Assembly: GCF_000798815.1 (NCBI RefSeq)
Contig: NZ_JTLD01000046.1
Location: 1-64,000, forward strand
DNA: 64,000 nt
Reading direction: 5' to 3'
DNA from: Alistipes sp. ZOR0009
GTDB lineage: Bacteria; Bacteroidota; Bacteroidia; Bacteroidales; ZOR0009
Shown here one piece after another: positions 48,750 to 63,949 of this stretch. Each line of letters starts with the position of its first letter. Position 1 is the first letter of the stretch. A model generated the notes under the pieces. It had not been told where the DNA came from, did not search any database, and saw nothing but the letters and a program-made list of their open reading frames with translations. The translations under genes and the position numbers were made by a program.

Positions 48750-49577
48750 CTATTTTTTAACGCAGAATTGGCTCCATGTCACTCCAATCTTAAGTCCTAC
48801 AGAAAGGATGTTAATCTTAGACGCCCTGTCGGATTTTAGCATGCTTTGGTATTCGCCATTTTTGTTGAGAATGGTTTGGCTATCGGTTTTAAGCAAATTG
48901 TTAAAGCCGTAGGTTCCGTAGGCTCCAACGTATAAACTTAGCTTTTCGGAAAGCGAATAGTTAGTCCCAAAATCGGCAAATAGACCTAACGAAGGGCGGA
49001 GCGAGAAGTTACCCGAAGGCCGCTCGTTGTAGGTTCTAAAGCCCTGTTCTGGGATATTAAACAACTCAACATTCCATTTGCTGTAGTAGCCCGAGGTAAT
49101 AATACCACCATCGTTAACCTTATAGTAAGTTTTGATAGGCAGTTGCAAAATACCTCCAAAAGTGTAGCTCATCCTGATTTTTGGAGAGAGCGTACTTCTG
49201 TAGGTTATTCCTAGCGGAATATCGAATGTAACAACCGAATGTTTCTCTTCCCATTGGTTGTAGCTAGTTCTGAGTTCATAGCTGTCGCCTTCGGAGTCAA
49301 CGCTAGGTGTTGCACTCTTAACGTTTAGGGTAACCGACGATTTATAGGAGCTAACTCCCAGTCCTGCGCTAGCTCCCCATTGTGAATTGAAGAAAATAGA
49401 GTATCGGGTGTTGATGTTGTAGCCTAACCCTCCCTTCTTATCTCCATCGTTAAATTTATAAAAAAGCTGATGCTGACCTCCTCCAACTGCAACCAAAAGA
49501 TTACGTTCGGTGGTTTGGCAAGCTGCCGATGCCGCTATAGTGAGCGCAGAAAGCGCGACAAAAAAACGTTTCATCAT
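48750..49577 (-). CDS. Outer-membrane beta-barrel protein
   Basis: A 275-aa exported protein. Signal peptide FFVALSALTIAASAACQ (~4-20). The rest is alternating amphipathic strands separated by turns: YSIFFNSQWGASAGLGVSSY, HSVVTFDIPLGITYRS, KIRMSYTFGGILQLPI, FSLRPSLGLFADFGTNYSL, LSLYVGAYGTYGFNNLL and KINILSVGLKIGVTW, consistent with an 8-10-stranded porin-like barrel. The last residues (SQFCVKK) lack the usual terminal aromatic. It starts 64 bp after the giant T9SS protein and is probably expressed with it under the same riboswitch. Specific function unknown. Confidence 0.75.
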   Translation of the reverse strand: MMKRFFVALSALTIAASAACQTTERNLLVAVGGGQHQLFYKFNDGDKKGGLGYNINTRYSIFFNSQWGASAGLGVSSYKSSVTLNVKSATPSVDSEGDSYELRTSYNQWEEKHSVVTFDIPLGITYRSTLSPKIRMSYTFGGILQLPIKTYYKVNDGGIITSGYYSKWNVELFNIPEQGFRTYNERPSGNFSLRPSLGLFADFGTNYSLSEKLSLYVGAYGTYGFNNLLKTDSQTILNKNGEYQSMLKSDRASKINILSVGLKIGVTWSQFCVKK

Positions 49578-49641: not shown

Positions 49642-52600
49642 TTAATTTGCTAGGATAATCTTAAATGTTAGCTTTTCTCCATTCGATAAAACTACACGGC
49701 CTAGGTAAATGCCATTACTCCCTGAAAGTAGTATTTTGTTATTCTCTTCTACCTTGTGTAGAGAGCATACCGTAATGCCTTGAGCGTTGGTAATATCCAA
49801 CACAGCCCCATGTAGTAAAGAAATGTCTATTCCTTTTAACATAACTGTAAAAGGAACTCCGGTTTGTACCGGATTTGGATACACGCTTATGCTGCTGCTT
49901 TCAGTCTTTTTTATTGCTAACGATTTGGAGCAGGTGTTTACAATATGTCCTGTGGTGGTGGTTAAACGGACGTGGTATGTTCCGTTAAGTCCATTCGGAT
50001 CTTTGTAGTATTGTTGTGTGGCACCTGTAATTGCGCTTCCATCCTTAAACCACTGGTATCCGTTGTAGCGGTTACTGCTGTTGTCTACCAGAACAACGTT
50101 ACCAAACTTGGTAACAATCGCATCTGCCGATACGTTGATGGTAAACTCGAACGGAATAGAGTTGCTTTCAAATCCATTTATATCACGAAACTGTAAAAAT
50201 GCATGAAAAGTACCATCGGTGGCTTTTTCTGGAATTGGAAGATAAACATGATTTGCTTCTACTAACTGATACTCTAAATCTTTAAAACCAGCTATATGAG
50301 CATCCTCTGCGTATCGTATTTTGTATTCGTAAGGAGTTCCGCTGGTAAGCGAGTAGTGGATGGCAATCTGATTTCCTTCACAACCAGCCATATTTACTTC
50401 AGTTCCTTTACTTATCACAATTGGATTTGAAATGGATGCTCCTGTAATTATGTCATTGAGCGGTGCAATGTAGTTTGCAGAAGCACTACCTGCAATGGTG
50501 TAACTTATGGTAATGGTTTTATTGGAACCTATATTCGCATCATCAAAAAATGCATTAGCCGTAACAGTTACATTTTCGTTATCCATGGAAATAACCCCAT
50601 TCAATTTCCCTAAACTATTGATAATGGCTTTATTGTTTCCATCAATAAGTTTGGCTGTAACTATGTTGGGCTTACTAATGGTAAGTTGAACTTTTTCTAC
50701 AGTAATGAGTATTTCTTGGGTTGCAAATTCCACACTTTCTGGATCTTTTGGTGTAAATATGGCTTTAATAACATGCTTTCCTACAGGAAGAAGTGAGCCT
50801 ATGGTAGGAAGATAGGTGATTGATCCTGCTACATTCGTAGATGCATTGAGGTGTTCGTTATTTAAAGTTGTTCCATAAGTAATGGAAGAAGGCGCTACCC
50901 ATTTGATTTCTGGGATTATCTTAGATGTGATTGCTTTTTCCACATCAAAAGTATGCAAAACACCACACTCCTCGCTCGTGGCTTTTATCGTTATGGTGCC
51001 AGTTCCTTCTTCTAGATCCTTAAAAGAAATGCTTAGCCTTCCGTCTTGTATTTGAGAAGAACATAGTGCTTCATTACTGTTTTTCACAAGTTCGTACGAT
51101 ATGATGTTATCTTCAGGGGCATCATCATCTGCAAATACAGTTTTTAAATCAAAGTATAGAACTTGGTTCTTTTTAAATACTTTTTGATTAGGAATAGGAT
51201 TTGTAACGTAAGGAGCCTCATCCAATCTTTCGATGACAAAGGTGTGCTCTACCGATTTCCCTTCGCTAGTTGCCTTGAGCGTGATGGTGGCCGCTCCTTT
51301 TTTCTTTGAAGTAAGATTTACCGTTAGCATCTTCTCTGCAATAGAAGCTTGCGCTAGCTCTACATTACTGTTCGAGATCACTTCAAGGGTAATGGTACTA
51401 CCTGCAGGGGCATCATCGTCGGCAAAAACGTTGCTAAGATCTAATGTCAGGACTTTATCTTTAGCCTTTGGTTGCTGCTTAACAATAGGATTGGCCACGT
51501 AGGGTGCCTTGTCTGGGCCGTTAAAGTTATCGATGCAGAAGTAGGCTGGAATGGTAAGTCCGTAGCTGTTGCTGCGCGATCCTTCAACCTTAAAACCAAT
51601 AGTTTTAACTTTACCCAATGCTGATAAATCCCACCAAGTCCAGTCGGTAAATAGCTTGTGATCTTTGGCGTCTGGCGAGCGGTAGTCTGCAAGATAAAAT
51701 TCAGAAGTCGAAGTTTGAGCACCTGTAGCATCATAGCCGGTGGCAACCACTTTAAACCAATCGCCTGCTTTAAACGGTTCGCCAGTCATACTATCGCCGT
51801 TGCGGATAACGCTAGCCACCCAAGCGGTGTTGGTAACGTAAGTTCCGGATATGATGTCGCCATCAGGTTTGTTGGTGGCTTCGATACGGGTAGAAAAACC
51901 AAAAGGATAAACCACTCCGTAGGTTTTAGAGTTCTTGGCTCCGTGACCTGCCGCAGAGCGGAACTGCTCTAGCATAAAATTACCGGTGAATTCGGTAGAG
52001 GTAAAGTTAGAATAGCCAAAACCAGACCACGTAGACCACTCCTTTTTAAGGAAATTATTAAACTTGTACGAGCCGCTGTAGAAGTAGTCCGATATTTCGC
52101 TGGCATTATCGTAGCCCCACCACCTCGATTCTGGCGCTAGGTTGAGGTCTTCGAAGGTGGCCACGTCTGCTATTCCCTCAACTGTAAGGATTATCTCGGC
52201 CGAAGAGGTTTGTCCAAAGGCGTCAGTTGCTGATACAGTAAATTTACCAGTTGCTTGGGGGATGATGTCAAGAACATCTCCAGTGTACTTTTTCTGGTTC
52301 TTAGTATCGAACCAAGTTACTGCGATAGGATTTGCTCCTCCTGCGAAATCGGCTTTTAGCGTAAACCTTTCGTTTTGTAGAGCCGAATATTCGTACTTCC
52401 CATTGTAGTAAAGCGCTTCGGGCTTATCGCTGAAGTTATCTATGTCAAATGCAGCTGCTGCATCAAACTCAACGCTTGATATTTCGCCAAGATCGAAAAG
52501 ACAGGCGTAGGTCCACTTTTCGGAGCTGATGGTTTTGCTGGGTGTTTTAGACCCATCGGCTTTTATGCCCCAGTATGTAATGGGCAAAGCGCTACGGATA

Positions 52601-55600
52601 AAGAAACCATTTACGGCAATACCCTTATCTGTATTCAAAATGGTAATTGAAGCAGATGCTTTGCTGTCGTAACGAGCAAATGTGCTTGAGCCTTTGGCTC
52701 CATCACCCTTTACTACCTTAAATCCAACAAACCTAGAGGTTCCGTCTGTAACATCAGCTGCATTTTCCTCTTGCTTTTCGAATGTAGATATTTCGGTAGG
52801 GCGGAATAGGGTCTTGAAGGGAAGTTTTTGAACGTCCGAAATATTTCCAAATACATCCTCTAGTACGAATGCTAGAAGGTATTCCTTATTCTCGTCTAGT
52901 TCGTCTAGCTTGATATCTAATTCCTGCTTTGCCGTTAATGTAGCCGCAGATCCTTTTTCTTTTAGAACGAGCTGTGCAGGTATTTCTGCTTTCCCATCTG
53001 TAAGTAGGTAAAAGCACTTTCCGCTTTCGTTGGATTTTATCAGCGCATTTGCTTTGATGTGGGTAAGATTTTTAATCTTGGGGTAGCCCTCCAGTAGTGC
53101 GGGTGCCATTTGATCTGGGGCATTATATTCGTCGGCTCCAACAAATGGCTTGTCGTTACTTCTGGTATCTCCGTCAAAATCGGTCTTAACAACATCTATT
53201 GGGATGGCTATACTGAATCCATCGGCTGATTTTAGGTGAAGATCCTCCTCGGAGTAAAACTCAGCCTTCTTTTCTATAGATTTTGTATCTGCCGCTTTGC
53301 TACTCCAGTCATTGTAGGATGTAACAGCTACACTTCCAACTTTTGCAAGGGTAGAGGCGGAGGAGTAGTAGGCGTTGTTTTCGAATACGATCCCATTTTG
53401 ATATCCGTCTTTAAGAATATAGATAGAGGAGCCTCCTGCGCTATTTTGGAAAAGGTTGTTGGCTATGCGGACGTTGTTGATTAGCGATTGGCTGCGTCCT
53501 TCCACCGAGAATGATCTGGAATCTGCTGCTTTTCCTGATATAGAGATGGTATTGTATAGAAGTCCAACTCCGTAGCAATCCGAATTTAGAAGAATTCCTG
53601 TTTCGTTGCTGTTGTTGCCAACAATGGAAATTAGGTTGTTACAAATTAGCGCCTGCCCTCTGTCGTTTTGAATAGGACGGCATTCTATCCCTTTTGCCCC
53701 AGGTGCTTTGGCTATATTGATGGCATTTTTAGAGATAAGGCTGCTCCCCACCAACCTGTAGAAGTCCATTCCTTGGAATCCGCTTTTGGTTGTACTGTAG
53801 TTCTTGATGATGTTTCCTTCGATAGTTGCTCCCTCTTCGTCGGTTATATATATCGATTTGGAGCCTTGGTCTGTAAGCCTGTTGTTTCGAATGGTCGCTC
53901 CTTTTTCTTTTGTTAGACCGACGTATCCCGTCCCTCCAACATAAAAACCAATGTATCCTCCTGTGAGATTATTATTCTCAAGGGTTAGGTTGTCGTTATT
54001 TTGTCCTTCGAGGTTGTTTGCCTTTGTTTTTACAAGGGCAATGTCTTCGGAAAAGGAAGTCGTCATTTTTGCAGATATGCTACAGCCCTTGATGGTGACA
54101 TTCTTGCTGATGTTGGAAATGTAGGCGACCGCTTCAAACTTAGGATCTTCAGTTGAGATACTAATATTTTCGATGCTGATAAAATCGGCACCTGCAATGT
54201 TGAATACCCCGTATGGATCTTTCCCATACTCTGGTTCTTTGTAGCTGTCGAACTTAACCTTTACATCGCTGGCATTATCTGTTTGACTTTTAAACGTAAT
54301 CCGTGCATTTTCTGTAGCACCATTGATGTGGGGTACTGTTACAATCTCATTGTACTCTCCTGGTTCTACCGTAAAAGTAACGTCGCCTTCAACTCCATCT
54401 TTAATGGAGTTAACCGCATCTGTAAATGTTTTAAAGTTGGCATTGCTGCTAGAACCAATGGTAAAGGAGCCTTTGGCGCCTCCAACTATTTTACGATCGC
54501 CTTCTGGGTTGCCATCTTTAACCGTAAGATTCCCTTCGCTTCCTGTTGCTGCCGTTAATGAGGCATCTATAGCGCTATTCGGAGCTGCAGTAACTTTTGT
54601 ATCGGCAACAATCCAGTAGTAGTAGCTTTCTGCTTTCCCAATTTTTTGTCCAATATGGATATCTACCTTATCTCCATTTACAGGGACAGCGCTACTAAGT
54701 TGATTTGTAGTTGCAAAAAAGTCGTTGTTATTGGTGTAGTAGACTTTTATGCTCTCTATCGCTGCGCTATTGGTAAGGTTTAACGAAAGCTGATCTAAGG
54801 AAATTACTCCTTTATCTCCATCGGCAGTGGCAACAACTTTTAGGAGAAGTTCATCTTTACTTCCTCTTACAATTGTATTGGTATTGGGTTGGCTTGCGCT
54901 AACTTGTGTTATTTTTAGGGGTTGTGGAATGGTCGTTGATACGGAGGCTTCCCAACCTGGTTTGTTTACGCTTTTATCCGATTTGAAGTGAATGGTTAGC
55001 GCTCCGTCGTCCGAGGTGGATACGATGGCACGGGGAGGTTTGTCGCCAAATAGTACAGATATTAGCTTTTCCGAGTTTACCTCTTTACCGGCAAATACTT
55101 CAAACTTATCTCCCTTCTCCAAATTAAAGGAGGTGAAGTCGATCTTTATGCTTTTCGTAGGATCGGCAGGTACAAAGGTTACGGTTCCATCAAACGAGTT
55201 GCTATGATTCTTATCCTTTCCGCCATCGTCGTAGAATAGAAGAAAATCATCAATCGTTTTAGTTGGATTTACGCCAGCTGCAAGAAGGTATTCGTTAACA
55301 ACTCGGCGGCTGCCATCTGGATCGCCAGCCGTGGCCTCTATTTTTTTACCACCATACGCAAGGCTTATGATGGATGCGTCTATCTCTGTTCCATTTTTTG
55401 CATTTTCGGCAACATCTATGGCTACCCAAAAGTAGTTTTTCCCTTCGGCTAACTCCGAATTGGCGCTTAAGGTCAGGGCATCTTCTATTTTATCCGCGTT
55501 AGCCCAAAGGTTTGTCGTGCTGAATTCGGGGGATGGGCCAGTGCTGTAAACCTTCAACTTGGAGACTGCGTTAGCGCTTCCTTTTAGGTTGATGTTTAGC

Positions 55601-57162
55601 GACTCTAGCTTAATAGGAGATAGGTTGCCTACCGTTTCTGCGCAGATTCGTAGTAGCGGCATGTCTGTAGCGCCAGGCTTTACGGCTTCGGTCGTTGGTT
55701 GATCTGCCGTAAGGCTGTTTATCTTCATTTCTACGGGGAGATACTCCTTTACGCGAGCTTCCCAACCTGCCGCTGTATAGTAGGAAGCCGACTCTTTTGC
55801 ATTAAAAAGAATGGTGATGGCTCCGTTTGCATCGTTAGAACGTAATGTTTTGCCAGGACCAACCTTTGCTTTGCTGGCGTTATCAAGCTTCCAAAGAAGA
55901 GCGGAGGTTTTTACTTCGGTTCCGCTATATACTTCGAATTGGGCTTTAGCTCCGTAGCTCGAGGAGGAGTAGTAGAGGTCAAACTTGTCAAAATCGAGCT
56001 GAATTACGTGTCCAGCAGCGGTAGGAGTAAAGGTAACCACCTGGTTTTTGGTGCTACCGTTATACTTTCCTCCCGAACCTTTGTTGTCGTCGGAAAAGCC
56101 CCATTCTCCGCTAATTTTTTGAGTAAAAGTGCCCTCTTTCATTCTATAAATGTTGCTTACGGTATGATTTCCGAAGGGATCGGATGAGGTTGTAGCAACT
56201 GCTTGGCCGCTTAGGAGAACTTGGTCGCAGGTGGCGTCAATTTTGTGACCGTTGGTGGCTTTTTCCGATAGGTTGTAGGTAAGCCAAAAGTAGTTGTCGC
56301 CTTCCTTTAGCGTCTGAGCTGAGGTAAGCGTAAATTCGCCGCTGGGGTTAACAGCGCTGTTTCCAACCTTTGTTGCCTTGCTAAAATCGTTGGCTAAACC
56401 CGAGTACCACAAGTCGGCCATTGCAATATCTTCGGTGGCATTATCGCTTCCCTTTGTGGTAAAGCGGGCCGATTGGAGTACTAGCGGATCTTTAGTGTTT
56501 TTGGTGGTAATACGCAGCTTTAGAATGTTGATGTTTTGCGTCCCGGCAGGAGCTTCGTATTTTACCTCCTGCGAGCAATCCGCCGCATCAACGGTCATTG
56601 GTTCGGGTGTAAACTCTTTGACAACGATGTGCCAACCATCTCTGGGAATTCCTGTTTTAACTTCGAATGTGATGGTTAGGGAGCCGTCCGCCGCCCACGA
56701 TTTAAGTATGTAGGGGTTGGTTAGGTATTCACCCTGTAGTTCGCTCTCCGAAGCCACCTTCCCGTTGTATACCCTAAAAATATCGTTGTAGCCAACCGAG
56801 GAGGTGTTGAAGATATCAAATGTTTTGAACTCCATCATCACCTTTTTACCTGGTGTAGATGGGCTAAAGGTGATAGACCCTTTAAATCCTGCGCTGCATT
56901 TTGCAGAAGGGCCTCCATCATCGTAAAAGTTTATTTCCTTGTCTACAACAATGGTTTGATGGGTTTGAGAGATTTTGATATCCTGCCCATCTTCGGGTGG
57001 TACTTGGCTAAATGCTTCGATTGTGCCATGCCGATAGCCGAAGCGGTTAGAGATGCCAAACTCTTTATTGGCCAGCGGTGGCCCATAGAGTGTCCGTGCT
57101 GAAATATCTATGCTGCCTAAAAGGGTAAGCACAAATAGGTAAAGAACTCTTTTCTGGTACAT
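49642..57162 (-). CDS. Giant T9SS-secreted multidomain protein with DUF4465 domain, B12-riboswitch controlled
   Basis: A ~2,506-aa surface protein. Start at 57162 gives the signal peptide YLFVLTLLGSIDISA; an earlier in-frame ATG at 57240 does not. In order (approximate): three tandem pairs of a CUB-like domain (FYDDGG opening, ~65-185, ~345-455 and ~620-730) and a BNR-associated N-terminal-like beta domain (LKEGDNYFWL motif in the first); a right-handed beta-helix (~900-1340); a degenerate DUF4465-like region (~1400-1570); a full DUF4465 domain (~1665-1880, VATFEDLNL to FCIDNF); two cadherin-like repeats (FADDDAP); Ig-like YDG/MBG repeats (~2080-2240); and a C-terminal type A sorting domain (~2425-2506, ISVYPNPVQTG). 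The cobalamin riboswitch ahead of it and the DUF4465 domain link it to corrinoid capture. Confidence 0.85.
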   Translation of the reverse strand: MYQKRVLYLFVLTLLGSIDISARTLYGPPLANKEFGISNRFGYRHGTIEAFSQVPPEDGQDIKISQTHQTIVVDKEINFYDDGGPSAKCSAGFKGSITFSPSTPGKKVMMEFKTFDIFNTSSVGYNDIFRVYNGKVASESELQGEYLTNPYILKSWAADGSLTITFEVKTGIPRDGWHIVVKEFTPEPMTVDAADCSQEVKYEAPAGTQNINILKLRITTKNTKDPLVLQSARFTTKGSDNATEDIAMADLWYSGLANDFSKATKVGNSAVNPSGEFTLTSAQTLKEGDNYFWLTYNLSEKATNGHKIDATCDQVLLSGQAVATTSSDPFGNHTVSNIYRMKEGTFTQKISGEWGFSDDNKGSGGKYNGSTKNQVVTFTPTAAGHVIQLDFDKFDLYYSSSSYGAKAQFEVYSGTEVKTSALLWKLDNASKAKVGPGKTLRSNDANGAITILFNAKESASYYTAAGWEARVKEYLPVEMKINSLTADQPTTEAVKPGATDMPLLRICAETVGNLSPIKLESLNINLKGSANAVSKLKVYSTGPSPEFSTTNLWANADKIEDALTLSANSELAEGKNYFWVAIDVAENAKNGTEIDASIISLAYGGKKIEATAGDPDGSRRVVNEYLLAAGVNPTKTIDDFLLFYDDGGKDKNHSNSFDGTVTFVPADPTKSIKIDFTSFNLEKGDKFEVFAGKEVNSEKLISVLFGDKPPRAIVSTSDDGALTIHFKSDKSVNKPGWEASVSTTIPQPLKITQVSASQPNTNTIVRGSKDELLLKVVATADGDKGVISLDQLSLNLTNSAAIESIKVYYTNNNDFFATTNQLSSAVPVNGDKVDIHIGQKIGKAESYYYWIVADTKVTAAPNSAIDASLTAATGSEGNLTVKDGNPEGDRKIVGGAKGSFTIGSSSNANFKTFTDAVNSIKDGVEGDVTFTVEPGEYNEIVTVPHINGATENARITFKSQTDNASDVKVKFDSYKEPEYGKDPYGVFNIAGADFISIENISISTEDPKFEAVAYISNISKNVTIKGCSISAKMTTSFSEDIALVKTKANNLEGQNNDNLTLENNNLTGGYIGFYVGGTGYVGLTKEKGATIRNNRLTDQGSKSIYITDEEGATIEGNIIKNYSTTKSGFQGMDFYRLVGSSLISKNAINIAKAPGAKGIECRPIQNDRGQALICNNLISIVGNNSNETGILLNSDCYGVGLLYNTISISGKAADSRSFSVEGRSQSLINNVRIANNLFQNSAGGSSIYILKDGYQNGIVFENNAYYSSASTLAKVGSVAVTSYNDWSSKAADTKSIEKKAEFYSEEDLHLKSADGFSIAIPIDVVKTDFDGDTRSNDKPFVGADEYNAPDQMAPALLEGYPKIKNLTHIKANALIKSNESGKCFYLLTDGKAEIPAQLVLKEKGSAATLTAKQELDIKLDELDENKEYLLAFVLEDVFGNISDVQKLPFKTLFRPTEISTFEKQEENAADVTDGTSRFVGFKVVKGDGAKGSSTFARYDSKASASITILNTDKGIAVNGFFIRSALPITYWGIKADGSKTPSKTISSEKWTYACLFDLGEISSVEFDAAAAFDIDNFSDKPEALYYNGKYEYSALQNERFTLKADFAGGANPIAVTWFDTKNQKKYTGDVLDIIPQATGKFTVSATDAFGQTSSAEIILTVEGIADVATFEDLNLAPESRWWGYDNASEISDYFYSGSYKFNNFLKKEWSTWSGFGYSNFTSTEFTGNFMLEQFRSAAGHGAKNSKTYGVVYPFGFSTRIEATNKPDGDIISGTYVTNTAWVASVIRNGDSMTGEPFKAGDWFKVVATGYDATGAQTSTSEFYLADYRSPDAKDHKLFTDWTWWDLSALGKVKTIGFKVEGSRSNSYGLTIPAYFCIDNFNGPDKAPYVANPIVKQQPKAKDKVLTLDLSNVFADDDAPAGSTITLEVISNSNVELAQASIAEKMLTVNLTSKKKGAATITLKATSEGKSVEHTFVIERLDEAPYVTNPIPNQKVFKKNQVLYFDLKTVFADDDAPEDNIISYELVKNSNEALCSSQIQDGRLSISFKDLEEGTGTITIKATSEECGVLHTFDVEKAITSKIIPEIKWVAPSSITYGTTLNNEHLNASTNVAGSITYLPTIGSLLPVGKHVIKAIFTPKDPESVEFATQEILITVEKVQLTISKPNIVTAKLIDGNNKAIINSLGKLNGVISMDNENVTVTANAFFDDANIGSNKTITISYTIAGSASANYIAPLNDIITGASISNPIVISKGTEVNMAGCEGNQIAIHYSLTSGTPYEYKIRYAEDAHIAGFKDLEYQLVEANHVYLPIPEKATDGTFHAFLQFRDINGFESNSIPFEFTINVSADAIVTKFGNVVLVDNSSNRYNGYQWFKDGSAITGATQQYYKDPNGLNGTYHVRLTTTTGHIVNTCSKSLAIKKTESSSISVYPNPVQTGVPFTVMLKGIDISLLHGAVLDITNAQGITVCSLHKVEENNKILLSGSNGIYLGRVVLSNGEKLTFKIILAN

Positions 57163-57293
57163 ATTAAAAGATATAGTTAATATCAATACAGCCAGAAATA
57201 TATGCGCGAAGGGAGCAATAGAAAGGAGTAAATACAGCAAGACCTTTCTACTTTGCCCTAACTCCCGAAGGCAAAATATTTCGAAATATGCAT

Positions 57294-57475
57294 TGGCAGG
57301 TCTTCTGACTTATCTCAACCTTAGGCGCCTTCCCATCCGACAGGCGTTAACCTTTTTCGGACAGTGGCATGGATGCCTTGGTTTGCGAGAATTACAGCAG
57401 CGGGTACTGTTCAGGATTTACACCTGATTCCCTTTTCATCGCTCTTTACTTGTAGGTAAAGAGGACACCAATAGG
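57294..57475 (-). ncRNA. Cobalamin (AdoCbl-type) riboswitch
   Basis: Read on the minus strand, the ~180-nt leader holds the B12-box landmarks in order: a P3-P6 core with AAAAGGGAATCAGGTG then AAATCCTGAACAGTACCCGC and TGCTGTAA, a GCCACTG element, a P7-P10 region (GGATGGGAAGGCGCC), and the closing AAGTCAGAAGACCTGCC that is almost diagnostic. It ends 132 nt before the ATG of the giant T9SS protein. In Bacteroidota such elements shut off corrinoid-uptake genes when B12 is plentiful. No strong terminator stem lies between it and the start codon, so translational control is more likely than attenuation. Confidence 0.95.
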
Positions 57476-57479
57476 GCGG

Positions 57480-57487
57480 CAAATCTA
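57480..57487 (-). promoter_or_regulatory. -7 promoter box at the 5' end of the riboswitch
   Basis: On the minus strand TAGATTTG is an exact TAnnTTTG match lying about 5-7 nt before the first conserved riboswitch bases, where a transcription start would be expected. Confidence 0.6.
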
Positions 57488-57585
57488 GCAATTCAAATTT
57501 TAAAAGACGGGCTTTTTTGTATGTTATTAAGCAAAATTGCCTTCTGCAAGCTGCTGCTTGCCGGTATTAGGCTAGTTCTTTGCTC

Positions 57586-57622
57586 AATAAAAGTGCGCTG
57601 CCACTTCGCAATGGCAACGCAC
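57586..57622 (-). terminator. Terminator between the DUF4465 lipoprotein gene and the riboswitch
   Basis: On the minus strand GTGCGTTGCCA pairs with TGGCAGCGCAC (one mismatch, 8-nt loop) followed by TTTTATT. It separates the upstream lipoprotein operon from the riboswitch transcript. Confidence 0.8.
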
Positions 57623-57693
57623 TCGTCACATTATATAAGGGCATAAACAACCTGAAAACAGATGCTCTACTATGAGGTTTGTTTTGAATTTAG

Positions 57694-58755
57694 TTAGATT
57701 TTATCTACAACTAGCTTATCTAAGCAAAAGTATACGGCTGTATTAGGGCCGTACTGGCCGCTATTGTCGGTAGATTCCATTTTAAAAAGGAGATACTTAA
57801 CCTCTCCAAGTGCAGATAGGTTAACATTAATCCATCCTTGTCTAGGTGCCTTTACCGATGTTCTACAGTCGCACAGGTAGCATTCTACAGGAGTGCTTTT
57901 TATGTTATTATTGGCATCAACACCGTAAATAAGCAGTTTAAAGTAGTCTCCTACTCCAAAGGCTCGAGCAAATCCATCTCCATAGAGAATGCCAAAGTGT
58001 GGCCAGGGGTGGTTTGCAATGTTAACGCTAACTGCTTCATAACGGTTGGATCCATTTTCAATCTTTATCCAGTTGGAATACTGAGATTCGTTAAATGTAC
58101 TCCCTGTAGCCTGATAGTCTTTCATGTAGTACCCCCAGTATCCAATAAGAAAGTTTTGAGGAGTATCTCCAGACGCCATACAGCCCCACTGGTGGGCAAT
58201 CCATCCGTCCGAACTGCCTGGTCTTCCGTAGTTAGACCTATCGGTAGAGTTTGATATGGTAAAACCGTCCCAGTATGCGTAGCCAGAAACGTTTCCGCCG
58301 GTATGGGAAAAGGTAAATATCTGAGATTGAAATTTAGTATCCGCGTAGGTCTGATTCCAGTAGTAACCTCCAGTTGTTGCAATCCCATTTTGAGAGAGAT
58401 TGTAGCCGCTTACATCCAATGTTACGTAATTGATGTTGTAAGGAAGCACGGTTACGGAGTAGCCTGATGTTGTCGTTTTTCCGAGATAGGTGGTTTTTAA
58501 AGTGATGGTCTTTACGCCGACTTTTTCACCTGTAACGGTCAACTTGTTGGCTGTCGATGTTAGTTTTCCATCAACAAACCAAGCGTATTGAGCAGATTTA
58601 TCTTTGATCTCAGGTTCTATTACAATACTTTTCTTCTCTTTTACCTGAAATGATGTAGGCTGTAAGCTGGTTGATGCCAGCTCGTCCTCTTTGTTACAAG
58701 AGGAAATTCCTGCAAGAATAAATGCTGCAAGCAGGAGGTATAAACGATTTTTCAT
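57694..58755 (-). CDS. DUF4465 domain lipoprotein, putative corrinoid-binding surface protein
   Basis: A 353-aa lipoprotein (LAGISSC lipobox, Cys20). Residues ~30-115 are a PKD-like beta domain (AQYAWFVDGKLTSTANKLTVTGEKVGVKTITL pattern). Residues ~120-353 are a DUF4465 domain: NQTYADTKFQSQIFTFSH, WDGFTISNSTD, GYWGYYMKDYQ, FKLLIYGVDANN, VECYLCDCRTS and the closing AVYFCLDKLVVD. DUF4465 proteins occur in Bacteroidota B12-transport loci and a B12-binding lipoprotein class (BtuH) has been described from such loci; whether this protein is orthologous I cannot tell from sequence alone. It is the last gene before the terminator and the riboswitch. Confidence 0.85.
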   Translation of the reverse strand: MKNRLYLLLAAFILAGISSCNKEDELASTSLQPTSFQVKEKKSIVIEPEIKDKSAQYAWFVDGKLTSTANKLTVTGEKVGVKTITLKTTYLGKTTTSGYSVTVLPYNINYVTLDVSGYNLSQNGIATTGGYYWNQTYADTKFQSQIFTFSHTGGNVSGYAYWDGFTISNSTDRSNYGRPGSSDGWIAHQWGCMASGDTPQNFLIGYWGYYMKDYQATGSTFNESQYSNWIKIENGSNRYEAVSVNIANHPWPHFGILYGDGFARAFGVGDYFKLLIYGVDANNNIKSTPVECYLCDCRTSVKAPRQGWINVNLSALGEVKYLLFKMESTDNSGQYGPNTAVYFCLDKLVVDKI

Positions 58756-58806: not shown

Positions 58807-59943
58807 TTAGATGCTTAAATCGGTTATCTTGGCGATGCGCAAGTGGTCATTGTCGTCTTCCTGTTCGGGATAGAATGTTGCGGTAACAATTTTTACAAAA
58901 TCAACACCAAGTAGCTTTACCTTCTTTCCGTTTTTATCAATCGCCCAGTCAATATCGATATCGTTTATGATATTTTCGTTAACTATCTTTCCTGCTCCTG
59001 CGTATCCCCATGTTTTCTCTAGCGTTTTGAGGTCAAATCCAGGGCTGGTTATACGAGTTCCTTTCAGAACCAGCTTTTGGTCTGCCAGCCATTGAGGATA
59101 TCTTGAGTTTTCGGGCATAACAACGAAATACTTCAGATCGCCAGTGCCGCCTTTGCTATCGCTCCACGAAATGGTTTCGGTTCTCTTTATTGCGTACGAA
59201 GGGGTATTAAATGTCATTTGGAAATCGCGAATGGTGGTCGATTTTGCATGTTCACTTCCTGCAATTTCGTACCATTCATCGTCGTCAGCCTTCCCATTCT
59301 TATTCTTATCGTAGGCTACCCAAACCGTTCCCAAAACGGTGGTATAGCTCGAGGATACGCTAAAATCTTTTTTATTGGTAAGGTTGACAATGGTGTGGTC
59401 GAACTTAAAGGTGGCGTTGCCACCAAATGTGCCCAAGTAAACATTCATCCCAGCATCTTTATTCTGCTTGATCTGGTTGTTGAGGACATTAAGGTGTTCT
59501 GCTGTTGTTTTGGCATCTTTGCTAAAGAAAAGATCGTTTACCATATACCCAACCGATGGCGAATAGCCTACCACTTCGCTAACTCCTGCTAGGTATTGGG
59601 TGTCGGCAACCTTTACTTGAACTTTTCGTGTTTCAACCTTGCCTGGCTTGGTTACGGTAAAGCTAAGGTCGTAGGTTCCTGCTTTTGCTGCAATAAACTG
59701 CAGCTCCTTGGTGGTTGATAGGGTAGAATCTTTTCTGTTGTTAACAGGATCGTTGACCATCCACAGGTAGGTTGCATTTTCGTCGCCAGTAATGGTTGGT
59801 GTAACCTCCAAAACCTTACAGCGATCTATGCTGTAGGTGTCTTTTATCGTAATCTTGATGGGTTCTACTTCTTCGTCTTTGCTGCACGATGCTATCAGTA
59901 GGGCAGCTGTAAGGAGGAGTAAGCCTTTTGCAATTTTTCTCAT
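58807..59943 (-). CDS. PKD-like surface lipoprotein, paralog 1
   Basis: A 378-aa lipoprotein (LLIASC lipobox, Cys20). Residues ~30-115 form a PKD-like domain (ENATYLWMVNDPVN, AGTYDLSFTVTKPG). The rest is a shared unknown domain containing a helical LNNQIKQNKDAGM stretch, GGNATFKFDHTIVNL (~175), a calcium-loop-like DKNKNGKADDDEWYE (~212-226), then YFVVMPENSRYPQW, and the ending DIDWAIDKNGKKVKLLGVDFVKIVTA. The same segments recur in the next gene upstream, so the two are tandem paralogs. Such proteins are repeatedly found in corrinoid-uptake loci. Ligand unknown. Confidence 0.8.
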   Translation of the reverse strand: MRKIAKGLLLLTAALLIASCSKDEEVEPIKITIKDTYSIDRCKVLEVTPTITGDENATYLWMVNDPVNNRKDSTLSTTKELQFIAAKAGTYDLSFTVTKPGKVETRKVQVKVADTQYLAGVSEVVGYSPSVGYMVNDLFFSKDAKTTAEHLNVLNNQIKQNKDAGMNVYLGTFGGNATFKFDHTIVNLTNKKDFSVSSSYTTVLGTVWVAYDKNKNGKADDDEWYEIAGSEHAKSTTIRDFQMTFNTPSYAIKRTETISWSDSKGGTGDLKYFVVMPENSRYPQWLADQKLVLKGTRITSPGFDLKTLEKTWGYAGAGKIVNENIINDIDIDWAIDKNGKKVKLLGVDFVKIVTATFYPEQEDDNDHLRIAKITDLSI

Positions 59944-59968: not shown

Positions 59969-61246
59969 TTATTTTCGAGTAGTAATTTTTTCGTTTAGTA
60001 GGTGTAGGTCGTATGCCCCCATTATCTCTGTCGATGATTCGCCCAACCAGCCGCACTCTTGGTTTAAGCCGGTGTAAACTTTTATAAAATCGACACCTGG
60101 GAGGTGTACTTTTTTGCCGTTAGCATCTACAGCCCAGTCGATATCTATGGCCGAATCGTCTTCCTCGTTGCGGATGTTATCCACGTAGCCAAAATCGAAT
60201 GCGTAGAGTACCCAGTACTTCCCTTGGCCACTTTCTTCCTTCGAATTATTGGGTAGTAAGGTTCCCTTGAAGGTTATTTTATCTTCCTTAACCCAGTTAG
60301 GAAAGTAGCTTTGGGTATGGAAGGTGTTTTTCGACTTGTAACCCGAGTTCCCTTGGTTGTCAGTCCATCGGATGTATTCGGTGTCCGACATAAATCCGCC
60401 ATCGGGCTTTGCAGGCTTGCTTGGATCGGGTTTGTAGTAGGTAATTTCGTAGTTATGTATCGTTTTGGGGTTGTTGTACTCGCTGCCTGCTATTTCGTAC
60501 CACTCATCGTCGTCGGGCTTACCGTTTTTATTTTTATCGTAGGCAACCATAATAACACCCGGCTCGCAGCTTCCGCCTTTTTGGGGTGCATTAGGATTTG
60601 GGTTGGCGTTTGCGTAAAAGGCGTTACCAAGGATACGAAAATCTCGTAGTCCAGATAGATTTACAATGGTATGATCGAAGCCAAAGGTGACGTAGCCACC
60701 AAAACCGCCAAGGCTTATCATGTACTTTTTCTTGTTTTCGCCCCCAATGTAGTCGTATACCTTTTTAAGGATGGATTCCTTTGTGTCTCCCTCCTTATAG
60801 TCGGGTAGCACGTTGGTAAACTGGCCAACAGTAGGCAAAAAGTCGAATATTTTGGCAATGTACGGGGAAGCCGTTTTTGCTTTTACGGTAATCGATGCTT
60901 CATAAATAGGGGTGGTGCTGTTTTCTTTAAGCAACGTCAACTTATAAGAGCCATCGGTAATGGCTACAAACTCAACCTTATTGGTGGCAACCTGTACAAG
61001 GTTGTATGCTTGAGTATTGGTAGCGTCAACTTTCCATTGGTAGGTTGTTCCGCTTTTTATCTCTACGGGTGCTTCTATGGTTAGCACCTCATACTGCGAT
61101 GTCTGCAGCGTGGTCGTTACTACTCCCGGTATTTCTTCTCCCTTCCCGGGTGTATCTCCATCATCTTTCGAGCAGCTTACGGCTGCTAGGTAGCAAGCTG
61201 CAACGAGGAGCACCTTTCTACATACTGTAAGCGTAATTTTTTTCAT
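59969..61246 (-). CDS. PKD-like surface lipoprotein, paralog 2
   Basis: A ~425-aa lipoprotein; start at 61246 (MKKITLTVCRK) with lipobox LAAVSC. The longer frame from 61336 adds 30 Arg-rich residues and is not used. It is co-linear with its neighbour: PKD-like domain (TYQWKVDATN, GSYKLTLLKEN), GGYVTFGFDHTIVNL, DKNKNGKPDDDEWYE, a Pro/Asp/Lys-rich insertion (YYKPDPSKPAKPDGG) absent from paralog 1, and AIDIDWAVDANGKKVHLPGVDFIKVYT. It lies 25 bp upstream of paralog 1. Probably a secreted ligand-binding subunit of the B12-linked locus. Confidence 0.8.
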   Translation of the reverse strand: MKKITLTVCRKVLLVAACYLAAVSCSKDDGDTPGKGEEIPGVVTTTLQTSQYEVLTIEAPVEIKSGTTYQWKVDATNTQAYNLVQVATNKVEFVAITDGSYKLTLLKENSTTPIYEASITVKAKTASPYIAKIFDFLPTVGQFTNVLPDYKEGDTKESILKKVYDYIGGENKKKYMISLGGFGGYVTFGFDHTIVNLSGLRDFRILGNAFYANANPNPNAPQKGGSCEPGVIMVAYDKNKNGKPDDDEWYEIAGSEYNNPKTIHNYEITYYKPDPSKPAKPDGGFMSDTEYIRWTDNQGNSGYKSKNTFHTQSYFPNWVKEDKITFKGTLLPNNSKEESGQGKYWVLYAFDFGYVDNIRNEEDDSAIDIDWAVDANGKKVHLPGVDFIKVYTGLNQECGWLGESSTEIMGAYDLHLLNEKITTRK

Positions 61247-61340
61247 TCGAATATGTTTTTTTATTGTGCTGGATACAATCCGCACAGTAAGCATGAGCCT
61301 ATACTTTCGGCGGCTGCTTGCTGTGCGGATTTCCATGTTT

Positions 61341-62687
61341 TTACTTGAAGCTGTCTGTAAAGAATATCCCGGCTGGGAAATGGGTATGGTTCTTATAGTC
61401 GGCTTTTAGAACGGGAGCGGTATCTCCAAACTTCCATACCGAAATGTCGTTGATAAGGAAGTCCCAACCGTAGCCCTTTATGGTATTAAAGAACACCTGT
61501 CCGGTTTTAGGATGAACGGCTAGGTTGTTGTACACTATTCCTGCGTTTTCTATCTTATCCTTTACATCTACCATAAAATCGGTTTTGCCAGTCGTAAAAA
61601 TGTGGCGGTATATTTTGGTAGAGGCGTTGCTAAAATAGAGCGTATCGCCAATGGCGCTGATCCCTGGAGTTGCTCCCCAGCCTGCGCCCACTTTTGCTTC
61701 TGCTATCTCGTTACTTTTGATAATGGCATAGCTCGATGGGTTAACTTTCGCGATTTGGGCTGGTTTGGTGGTACACGAAATCCAAAGGTTGCCATCCGAT
61801 GCCTTTAGCACGCCCGATACGTTGCCTGCCATTTTGATAACATCAACCTTCTCGCCTTGTATTGCAAAAACCTTATCTCCGGCAGGTACAAACACCTTGT
61901 TGCCCACTACGGCCATCCTGTTTTTATCGGCGCCCTCGGTTCCTTCTACAAATTTCAGCGCCTTTGTGTCGGTGTTGAATAGGTATACGCCCTTGTTGTC
62001 GCGGATGTAAACGTTGTTGGTGCCAACAACTGCAATATGGGTTGGCCACGACAGGGTTTTGTCTAGCTCTTCGTTAAAGGCTGCCTCTTTTACCAAGGTT
62101 TCGGCATTGGCCACTACCAGCATATCGCCACCCATGCGGTTTCCATTTTGGGCAATGATGTATATCTTGTTGTTGGCAATAAAAAGGTCTTGGGTTACAT
62201 TCCCCAGCGGTGTTTTGTTCACCTTAAAGAAGGCGCTGTCGGTAACCACACCTTTTGGAGATATAAAGATTAGCGATCCATTTTCGGAGGTCATATTTCC
62301 CTCGTTTAGGATGAAAGTTCCGTTTTTATACTTCCCATACACCGACACCTTCACGCTAGAGGTGGCCACACCGCCGTCGGGATTGGTTACGGTGAGCGAG
62401 ATAAGGTGTTCGCCCATGCTGGTGGCTACAAAGTTGTATTTTGCTGTGCGGGCAACCTCTTTTCCGTCTACCTGCCAAGCTACCGCAAAGTTTGTCGAGT
62501 TTTTTACCGCAGCGCTAAGATGTAAAGTATCCTCCTGCGCTAAGTTAAGGTCGCTGGTTGAGGTAGCACCTGCAACCTCAATTGTAAGCTGTGGTGGAAT
62601 GATATTCTCATCATCCTTGCTACACGAGCTAAAGAGTAGGGCGCTAAGCGCTACAAAAAGCACCGCATAAAATTTGTTCTTTGTCAT
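61341..62687 (-). CDS. YncE/DUF5074-like beta-propeller lipoprotein with PKD-like domain
   Basis: A ~448-aa lipoprotein; start at 62687 (MTKNKFYAVLFVALSALLFSSC), lipidated Cys at 22. An earlier in-frame ATG at 62804 overlaps the upstream gene and lacks a signal peptide. Residues ~30-115 are a PKD-like domain (TNFAVAWQVDGKEVARTAKYNF). Residues ~118-448 form a beta-propeller: GTFILNEGNMTSENGSLIFISPKG opens it, followed by blade repeats (DLFIANNKIYIIAQNGN, LSWPTHIAVVGTNNVYIRDNKGVYLF, IAVHPKTGQVFFNTIKGYG). The NEGNM start and blade pattern are shared with the next gene. Propeller lipoproteins of this type (BtuG) cap BtuB and bind B12 in Bacteroides; a similar role here is plausible. Confidence 0.82.
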   Translation of the reverse strand: MTKNKFYAVLFVALSALLFSSCSKDDENIIPPQLTIEVAGATSTSDLNLAQEDTLHLSAAVKNSTNFAVAWQVDGKEVARTAKYNFVATSMGEHLISLTVTNPDGGVATSSVKVSVYGKYKNGTFILNEGNMTSENGSLIFISPKGVVTDSAFFKVNKTPLGNVTQDLFIANNKIYIIAQNGNRMGGDMLVVANAETLVKEAAFNEELDKTLSWPTHIAVVGTNNVYIRDNKGVYLFNTDTKALKFVEGTEGADKNRMAVVGNKVFVPAGDKVFAIQGEKVDVIKMAGNVSGVLKASDGNLWISCTTKPAQIAKVNPSSYAIIKSNEIAEAKVGAGWGATPGISAIGDTLYFSNASTKIYRHIFTTGKTDFMVDVKDKIENAGIVYNNLAVHPKTGQVFFNTIKGYGWDFLINDISVWKFGDTAPVLKADYKNHTHFPAGIFFTDSFK

Positions 62688-62752
62688 GATAATGAAATTT
62701 TGAACGTATAGTTGATTGTTAATGTCGTACATCTTCAATAATCGAGTGGACG

Positions 62753-63949
62753 CTACTTTACAAAGGCAAAATGGCCCGGGATATTCCCTGCGGTGGTTTT
62801 CCACTTAAACTTTCCCTTTGGCGAAAAGCAGTATATGTAGCCCGTAACCACGTAGTTTTGGGCGTCGGTTATGAATACCTCCTTTGTTTCCGGATTTACC
62901 GTAATACCGTAGGGTATTAGAATCTGCTTGTCGGTTCCGTCTGTTATTACCTTGTCGGATATCACCGTTTTGCTTCGGGTATCGAGAATCCCGTAGGTTA
63001 CCGTATTGGATTTGGTGACGTAGCTCCACGCCACGCTGTAGTAGTAGAGCGAGTCGCCGCTGAGGCACATTTCGCTTACGGGGATGTTGAGCGCCTGCTT
63101 TACCAAGTCGGTTTGGCTGTCGATAACGTACAGGTTGGGCTCGGTACTGTAGTAGTCGCCGCGCGAGCTTACGTAAATGTCGCCGCGCTTGTCAATCTGC
63201 ATGCGATGAAGGTTGATGGCCACGTCAATTTTCTTTATCTCCTTAAAGGTGTTGAGGTCGATTACCGAAACGGTGCGATCGTAGTTGGGTACGCGGTAAC
63301 CGCCCGAGTTGGCAACGTACAGCTTGTTGTTGTGCACCACCATCTCCTCGGGTTGGTAGCCAACGTCTACCATTCGGGTAAACTCGAGGGTTGCGGTATC
63401 TATTTCTGCCACAAAGCCTGTTCGTGCGTTAGGATCTATTTGAACGGGGCCTGCGTAGGAGCTCACGTATGCCTTGCCATTATGAAAGGCCATGTAGCGG
63501 CAGTTTGGAATCTTTAGCGCCTTGATATGCTTGGCGGTTTTTGCATCCATAACCTCTATGTAGTTCGAGCAGTTGATAACAACGTACACCTTCGATCCGT
63601 ATATCTTGATGTCGTTGCCCACATCGCCCAATTCCTTTACAACATGAGGGTTTATCTCAGAAAAGATGTCCCTTTTGTAGGTTCCGGTTTCGTACTCAAA
63701 GAAATCGATGGAAGCCCGGTTCATTCCCATGTTCCCTTCGTTTAGCAGGTAGAACCCTTTTATGTTGGTGCCCAAAAGCGGTGTGGTAACCTGATCTTTC
63801 TCCGTCAGAAAGATAACTTGCTCCTTGCGGCACGAAATAAGGCTTAGAGAGGCAACGAGTAAAAGGGCAAAACCTTTGCCGTAAAGGGCTGCTGCGTTAT
63901 TTCTGCTGCGCTTTTTGATAAACTGGGTATATGCTTTTATGGTATCCAT
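62753..63949 (-). CDS. YncE-like beta-propeller lipoprotein, BtuG-like
   Basis: A 398-aa lipoprotein. A basic N-terminus (KKRSRNN) and hydrophobic helix lead to LISC (Cys40). The propeller begins GFYLLNEGNMGMNRASIDFFEYETG (~66-90), with blades at VVINCSNYIEVMDAKTAKHIKALKI, AYVSSYAGPVQID, LYVANSGGYRVPNYDRTVSVIDLNTFKEIKKIDV and FITDAQNYVVTGYIYCFSPKG. Seven blades are likely. Its neighbours (a second propeller, PKD-like pair, DUF4465 proteins and a B12 riboswitch) make it the best BtuG-like candidate in the window. The gene is complete; a BtuB-type transporter would be expected just beyond the right edge and cannot be seen. Confidence 0.85.
   Translation of the reverse strand: MDTIKAYTQFIKKRSRNNAAALYGKGFALLLVASLSLISCRKEQVIFLTEKDQVTTPLLGTNIKGFYLLNEGNMGMNRASIDFFEYETGTYKRDIFSEINPHVVKELGDVGNDIKIYGSKVYVVINCSNYIEVMDAKTAKHIKALKIPNCRYMAFHNGKAYVSSYAGPVQIDPNARTGFVAEIDTATLEFTRMVDVGYQPEEMVVHNNKLYVANSGGYRVPNYDRTVSVIDLNTFKEIKKIDVAINLHRMQIDKRGDIYVSSRGDYYSTEPNLYVIDSQTDLVKQALNIPVSEMCLSGDSLYYYSVAWSYVTKSNTVTYGILDTRSKTVISDKVITDGTDKQILIPYGITVNPETKEVFITDAQNYVVTGYIYCFSPKGKFKWKTTAGNIPGHFAFVK

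Follow-up and report, generated by a model that had tools for sequence, protein, structure and literature searches.

Why does a cobalamin riboswitch stand directly before the gene for a 2,506-aa, many-domain protein that is probably exported by type IX secretion (T9SS)? Gut bacteria compete for B12, which shapes their communities, and most of the capture parts known so far are small lipoproteins. The locus lies on a 64,000-nt stretch of DNA from Alistipes sp. ZOR0009, which was analysed as a whole and is called the window here (Table 1). The answer that we favour, at a probability of about 75%, is that the giant belongs to the cell's own B12 regulon and captures corrinoids at the surface or after release, being de-repressed at low B12 and feeding BtuB, BtuG and BtuH. 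First of all, low intracellular cobalamin would let the riboswitch permit expression of the giant, B12 repression being reportedly established for related Bacteroides riboswitches. Second, the protein would be exported via Sec and T9SS and then displayed on the surface or released. Third, its BtuJ-type DUF4465 domain, set in a long series of beta domains, would bind corrinoids. Finally, bound corrinoid would be handed over to the BtuB/BtuG/BtuH machinery of the neighbouring operon. The computed basis of this scheme is the riboswitch, a terminator-bounded unit, the DUF4465 fold with its HI-loop tyrosine, the sorting domain, SprA and the recurrence of such proteins with riboswitches and btu genes.

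Table 1. Features of the giant gene, its leader and the neighbouring operon (window positions)
Feature	Position	Strand	Evidence or remark
Type IX secretion C-terminal sorting domain	49645..49899	-	TIGR04183 26.5 bits on isolated C-terminus; model pLDDT 96
Giant protein, 2,506 aa, ATG start	49642..57162	-	Apparent Sec signal peptide
DUF4465 (BtuJ-type, predicted B12-binding) domain	51523..52041	-	PF14717 8.9e-55; 9hmu 6e-24
Beta-helix-like region (about aa 897-1330)	53173..54474	-	Homology to PF13229-matching regions of other giants
Repeated CUB + BNR_assoc_N modules (about aa 60-890)	54493..56985	-	Pfam; extra copies by eye and from internal BLAST overlaps
11-bp hairpin, loop CGGGAGTT, putative expression platform	57249..57278	-	-11.4 kcal/mol, z -3.4; directly behind aptamer
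Cobalamin riboswitch aptamer, complete	57278..57487	-	RF00174 97.5 bits, E 4.3e-23, model 1-189 of 189
-7 box TAGATTTG (TAnnTTTG; Bacteroidota promoter element)	57480..57487	-	5' end of aptamer
Intrinsic terminator between upstream operon and riboswitch	57583..57627	-	15-bp stem then TTTTATT; -25.5 kcal/mol, z -6.5
Small DUF4465 lipoprotein (BtuJ-like)	57694..58755	-	Pfam 4.5e-34; 4jqr 4.2e-16
BtuH-like lipoprotein	58807..59943	-	7biz 1.6e-19, 8blw 1.7e-25
Second BtuH-like lipoprotein	59969..61336	-	No Pfam match; motif D.N.NG..DDDEWYEIAGSEY common to 58807..59943 gene (by eye)
DUF5074 (BtuG-like propeller) lipoprotein	61341..62804	-	Pfam 3e-63
DUF5074 (BtuG-like propeller) lipoprotein	62753..63949	-	Pfam 1.7e-21

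The riboswitch is the sole Rfam match at the gathering score (31.5 bits for RF00174) in a scan of the whole window, and its alignment contains the B12 box AGTCAGAAGACCTGCC. The covariance model bears out an earlier, sequence-only reading of this DNA, which had recognised a complete minus-strand B12 riboswitch with a -7 box at its 5' end; the span given there, 57162-57487, covers the leader together with the riboswitch, the aptamer itself being shorter. The TAnnTTTG motif on its own occurs at chance frequency (66 in the window against 63 expected), and the TAGATTTG box is informative by its position, because such a motif falls no more than 2 nt from the aptamer start in 17 of the 24 riboswitches compared. 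It is very likely the promoter of the giant gene. A sigma-70 scan returned chance-level sites only, as expected in a phylum, the Bacteroidota, that uses other promoters. A CGGG-loop hairpin lies 3' of 15 of 22 riboswitches, compared with 8% in shuffled sequence, and the CGGGAGTT loop found here could base-pair with the conserved CCCG of the aptamer, a pairing that we take to be the kissing contact known for this riboswitch class. The ATG of the giant follows 115 nt downstream of the aptamer. For the direction of control, homologous operons in B. thetaiotaomicron show B12-dependent repression (PMC12751083, PMC8941943).

The strong terminator, the promoter box and the riboswitch together make the giant gene appear as a separate transcription unit, and the same terminator weakens the idea of read-through into it from the operon upstream. 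That operon runs past the window to a BtuB-like receptor gene and a second cobalamin riboswitch (contig C46:66154-66359), so that its order is riboswitch, then btuB-btuG-btuG-btuH-btuH-btuJ-like genes. On the other side, 65 bp 3' of the giant and on the same strand, is an ORF for an outer-membrane beta-barrel-like protein (48750-49577, minus strand), possibly co-transcribed with it. The small BtuJ-like lipoprotein and the giant are the only DUF4465 genes of the genome, which has ten cobalamin riboswitches; the other targets, named by eye, include NrdD-like ribonucleotide reductase, btuFCD-like, cobalamin biosynthesis, and CbiK-like or receptor genes. One full riboswitch with a -7 box and a CGGG-loop hairpin (L018:5406-5599; G000:C2:23405-23598, plus strand) is not followed by any clear gene on its own strand: past a terminator-like inverted repeat (about L018:5661-5702) comes an AsmA-like gene on the opposite strand. 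This riboswitch possibly controls a short RNA or is a remnant. Another leads a cobalamin biosynthesis operon (L016:10152-18761, genes named by eye). With such an operon present the strain may not depend on scavenging, which counts against a role of the giant in capture; the likely scavenger is possibly a producer as well.

The giant has an apparent Sec signal peptide and lacks a lipobox (both judged by eye). Pfam finds DUF4465 (8.9e-55), CUB (2.1e-13), BNR_assoc_N (2e-29, in two stretches) and YDG, and Ig-like modules are present too. A protein of about 2,500 aa with CUB-like, beta-helix and DUF4465 domains and a type IX tail had been proposed from the sequence; length, CUB, DUF4465 and tail hold, and the beta-helix is seen by way of homologous giants, PF13229 giving no direct match in the window protein itself. 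BLAST alignments of it with other giants span roughly residues 60 to 2,000, the DUF4465 domain being the most conserved part. The succession of beta domains points to an elongated shape; a filament-like form, as suggested in the sequence-only reading, would be an extrapolation from it.

Its C-terminus scores above the TIGR04183 cut-off of 23 bits, if marginally (26.5 when isolated, 18 in the whole protein, and 25.9 in the genome scan, which finds ten tails of this kind including this one). The nearest structural matches to the sorting-domain model are Ig-like folds, among them PorZ and the T9SS substrate domains 8glk and 8gl6; none of these matches passes E 0.001, so that they are supportive only. 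The genome encodes the SprA/Sov translocon (TIGR04189, 2,626.9 bits). Each of the 26 other genomes checked has SprA too, and 23 of these encode a large DUF4465 protein; as two congeners that lack DUF4465 also have SprA, its presence does not discriminate. The PorU sortase models NF033707 and PF01364 have no match in the genome, PF01364 being silent in control genomes too. Among giants of other genomes and the window protein, 14 of the 15 C-termini scanned have a T9SS tail score (L056 is the exception). Large Prevotella-like DUF4465 proteins (e.g. L074, L100 and L110) have a short tail, YTLDGK...GVNIVKMSDGTTRKV, in place of the usual sorting domain, and many Prevotella proteins of the second set described below carry it. 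From signal peptide and tail, the giant is probably exported, as a surface-attached or released protein.

How general is the arrangement? DUF4465 occurs in 168 of 393 Bacteroidales genomes; its absence from two congeneric genomes counts against a role in capture. A first set comprised 17 loci with open frames of more than 1,000 aa, picked regardless of riboswitches, 15 of them with upstream DNA, and all 15 of these giants have a same-strand cobalamin riboswitch upstream, 12 directly before the gene and 3 before the preceding gene. The second set, from named genomes, held 54 testable large genes (at least 850 aa) and was searched with a model derived from 25 riboswitches, whose results Rfam bears out at the eight loci that were scanned again. 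A same-strand riboswitch lies upstream of 41 of the 54 (30 within 700 nt, 11 at 1.1-4.9 kb); since these genes were chosen by closeness to domains of giants, and the sets overlap (e.g. L064 and L080), the two counts are not independent. Ten of the 13 genes without a riboswitch in the upstream DNA covered adjoin btuB/G/H or btuF/C/D genes, and for three (L077, L108 and L120) neither riboswitch nor btu neighbours were found. A rule that a riboswitch stands directly before every giant was rejected, as 24 of the 54 have none directly adjacent. The association itself, for which the sequence-only reading had suggested such a survey, is supported by both sets. Bacteroides salyersiae (L093) is one of the cultured relatives whose giant follows a riboswitch. 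The remaining possibility that the riboswitch stands beside an unrelated giant by chance or inheritance, or is left over from a split operon, could draw on the ten riboswitches of this genome and the one without a clear same-strand gene, but is close to refuted by the recurrence of the arrangement in unrelated genera, among giants picked regardless of riboswitches, and by the giant's own promoter box and terminator boundary.

In a tree of 46 DUF4465 domains, the window domain falls in a 12-row clade (support 97/94) whose proteins, drawn from several families, are mostly large. Those of the roughly 1,060-aa type group in a clade of their own (100/100), as do those of the 3,027-aa type (100/100). 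Because these large types fall in separate supported clades, the large architecture probably has three or more independent origins. The 3,027-aa giants (L052:3969-13052 and L053:4900-13983) lie behind a cobalamin riboswitch and include a clostripain (Peptidase_C11) domain, whose presence suggests that proteolysis may be coupled to B12 capture there.

What, then, does the giant hold on to? The best-surviving alternative, which we regard as unlikely, is that it is mainly an adhesin, whose CUB, beta-helix and Ig modules bind polymers, cells or vesicles that carry B12, with DUF4465 as one of several ligand modules; B12 starvation would then change attachment, not direct capture. Adhesin-like modules make up most of the 2,506 aa, and we know of no link between CUB, beta-helix or Ig modules and B12, which weighs against direct capture. 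There is also a precedent in Paraprevotella clara, where, in the excerpted text of PMC9477747, 00502 and 00509 are T9SS-exported surface proteins, as we propose for the giant, and 00502, with Ig-like domains, draws a gut ligand onto the surface; the ligand is trypsin, the other domains differ, and no B12 regulation is reported in that text. The conservation of the giants, however, is greatest in DUF4465, and the riboswitch also leads smaller DUF4465 proteins that carry few modules besides. Furthermore, in some relatives the giant lies inside btuB-G-H-giant-btuF-C-D-like operons (L079:3595-13784, L083, L084, L086 and L101), a gene context that speaks directly for a role in B12 uptake.

We think it more unlikely still that the giant's DUF4465 domain no longer binds B12, or has a different ligand such as carbohydrate, as similar beta-jellyrolls do, the link to the riboswitch being inherited. 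Against B12-bound structures the domain matches D5EK51 (9hmu) at 6e-24 and BtuJ1 (9fct) at 1.9e-14. Its model (pLDDT 93) has the augmented beta-jellyroll fold of the DUF4465/IPR027828 family and superposes on 9hmu with Z 27.4 and 2.0 Å over 204 residues, and on 9fct with Z 26.3; the next structural matches are carbohydrate-binding modules, a point for another ligand, although far weaker at Z of about 7. At the DE loop, where the three solved DUF4465-B12 complexes are said to share a tyrosine (Tyr146 of BtuJ1), the giant has Trp, which counts against capture. Among the 46 unique aligned domains that cover the HI-loop site, the DE-loop residue is not universal (Tyr in 26, Trp in 16, Phe in 4), and Trp is commoner in the domains of long proteins (12 of 19 where the protein has 1,000 aa or more, 4 of 27 in the rest), a bias that would suit a change of ligand in large forms. 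On the other hand, the HI-loop tyrosine (Tyr245 of BtuJ1) is invariant in all 46, kept in the giant as PAYF, and the solved homologue 4jqr likewise has Trp at the DE loop. The Trp of TNTAW had been considered as a lost HI-loop tyrosine; alignment to the solved structures places it at the DE loop, with the HI tyrosine intact. Riboswitch or btu context, moreover, persists in Trp-bearing proteins, B12 binding is shown for eight divergent DUF4465 proteins, and the pocket is lined by Tyr, Phe and Trp (PMC13398666). From fold and residues we infer that the giant's DUF4465 domain binds B12.

A corrinoid-capture role of this kind has clear relatives among known systems. BtuJ1 and BtuJ2 (BT_1491 and BT_1957), of the same DUF4465/IPR027828 family, share with the giant the domain and its fold, the HI-loop tyrosine, riboswitch-regulated B12 loci and, as predicted for the giant, an extracellular location. 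They are, however, small vesicle-linked lipoproteins inside operons, whereas the giant is a 2,506-aa many-domain protein of T9SS type with its own riboswitch and a DE-loop Trp. The Bacteroides BtuB-BtuG-BtuH cobamide uptake loci resemble the neighbouring operon in having a riboswitch and BtuB-, BtuG- and BtuH-like genes, and giants of relatives can be members of such loci; the giant here, in contrast, is no lipoprotein and forms a separate unit. The signature IPR026444 we take to be that of type IX sorting. It is present on 229 of 824 DUF4465 family members in the excerpted text of PMC12751083, which also reports tight B12 binding by BtuJ1 and BtuJ2, their riboswitch-regulated operons and the supply of B12 from vesicles. 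The type IX-sorted members are like the giant in combining DUF4465 with a sorting domain and are proposed there as extracellular cobalamin binders; that text gives counts, and says nothing of how large the giants are, how their modules are ordered or whether a riboswitch controls them directly. Extracellular DUF4465 B12 binders in general are thus already published. In open-licence papers, searches that combined T9SS with cobalamin or riboswitch brought up no account of the giant riboswitch-led forms, which appear to be undescribed in that literature. The earlier proposal of a corrinoid-scavenging T9SS giant under direct riboswitch control draws good support from homology, context and recurrence, while its claim to novelty narrows, the ingredients having been described (PMC13398666 and the excerpts of PMC12751083).

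More broadly, and tentatively, Bacteroidales may have repeatedly built giant T9SS-exported, riboswitch-controlled corrinoid harvesters, on at least three DUF4465 branches, which would form a surface layer beyond the lipoprotein zone, or be released, and hand B12 to BtuBG. With recurrent giants of this kind, the B12 regulon would reach into the type IX secretome, and many unannotated proteins of 1,000-3,000 aa would gain a testable role. The combination of riboswitch, DUF4465 and sorting domain would serve as a genome-wide marker. Found across gut and environmental Bacteroidales, the arrangement looks like a widespread, larger version of the known B12-scavenging kit.
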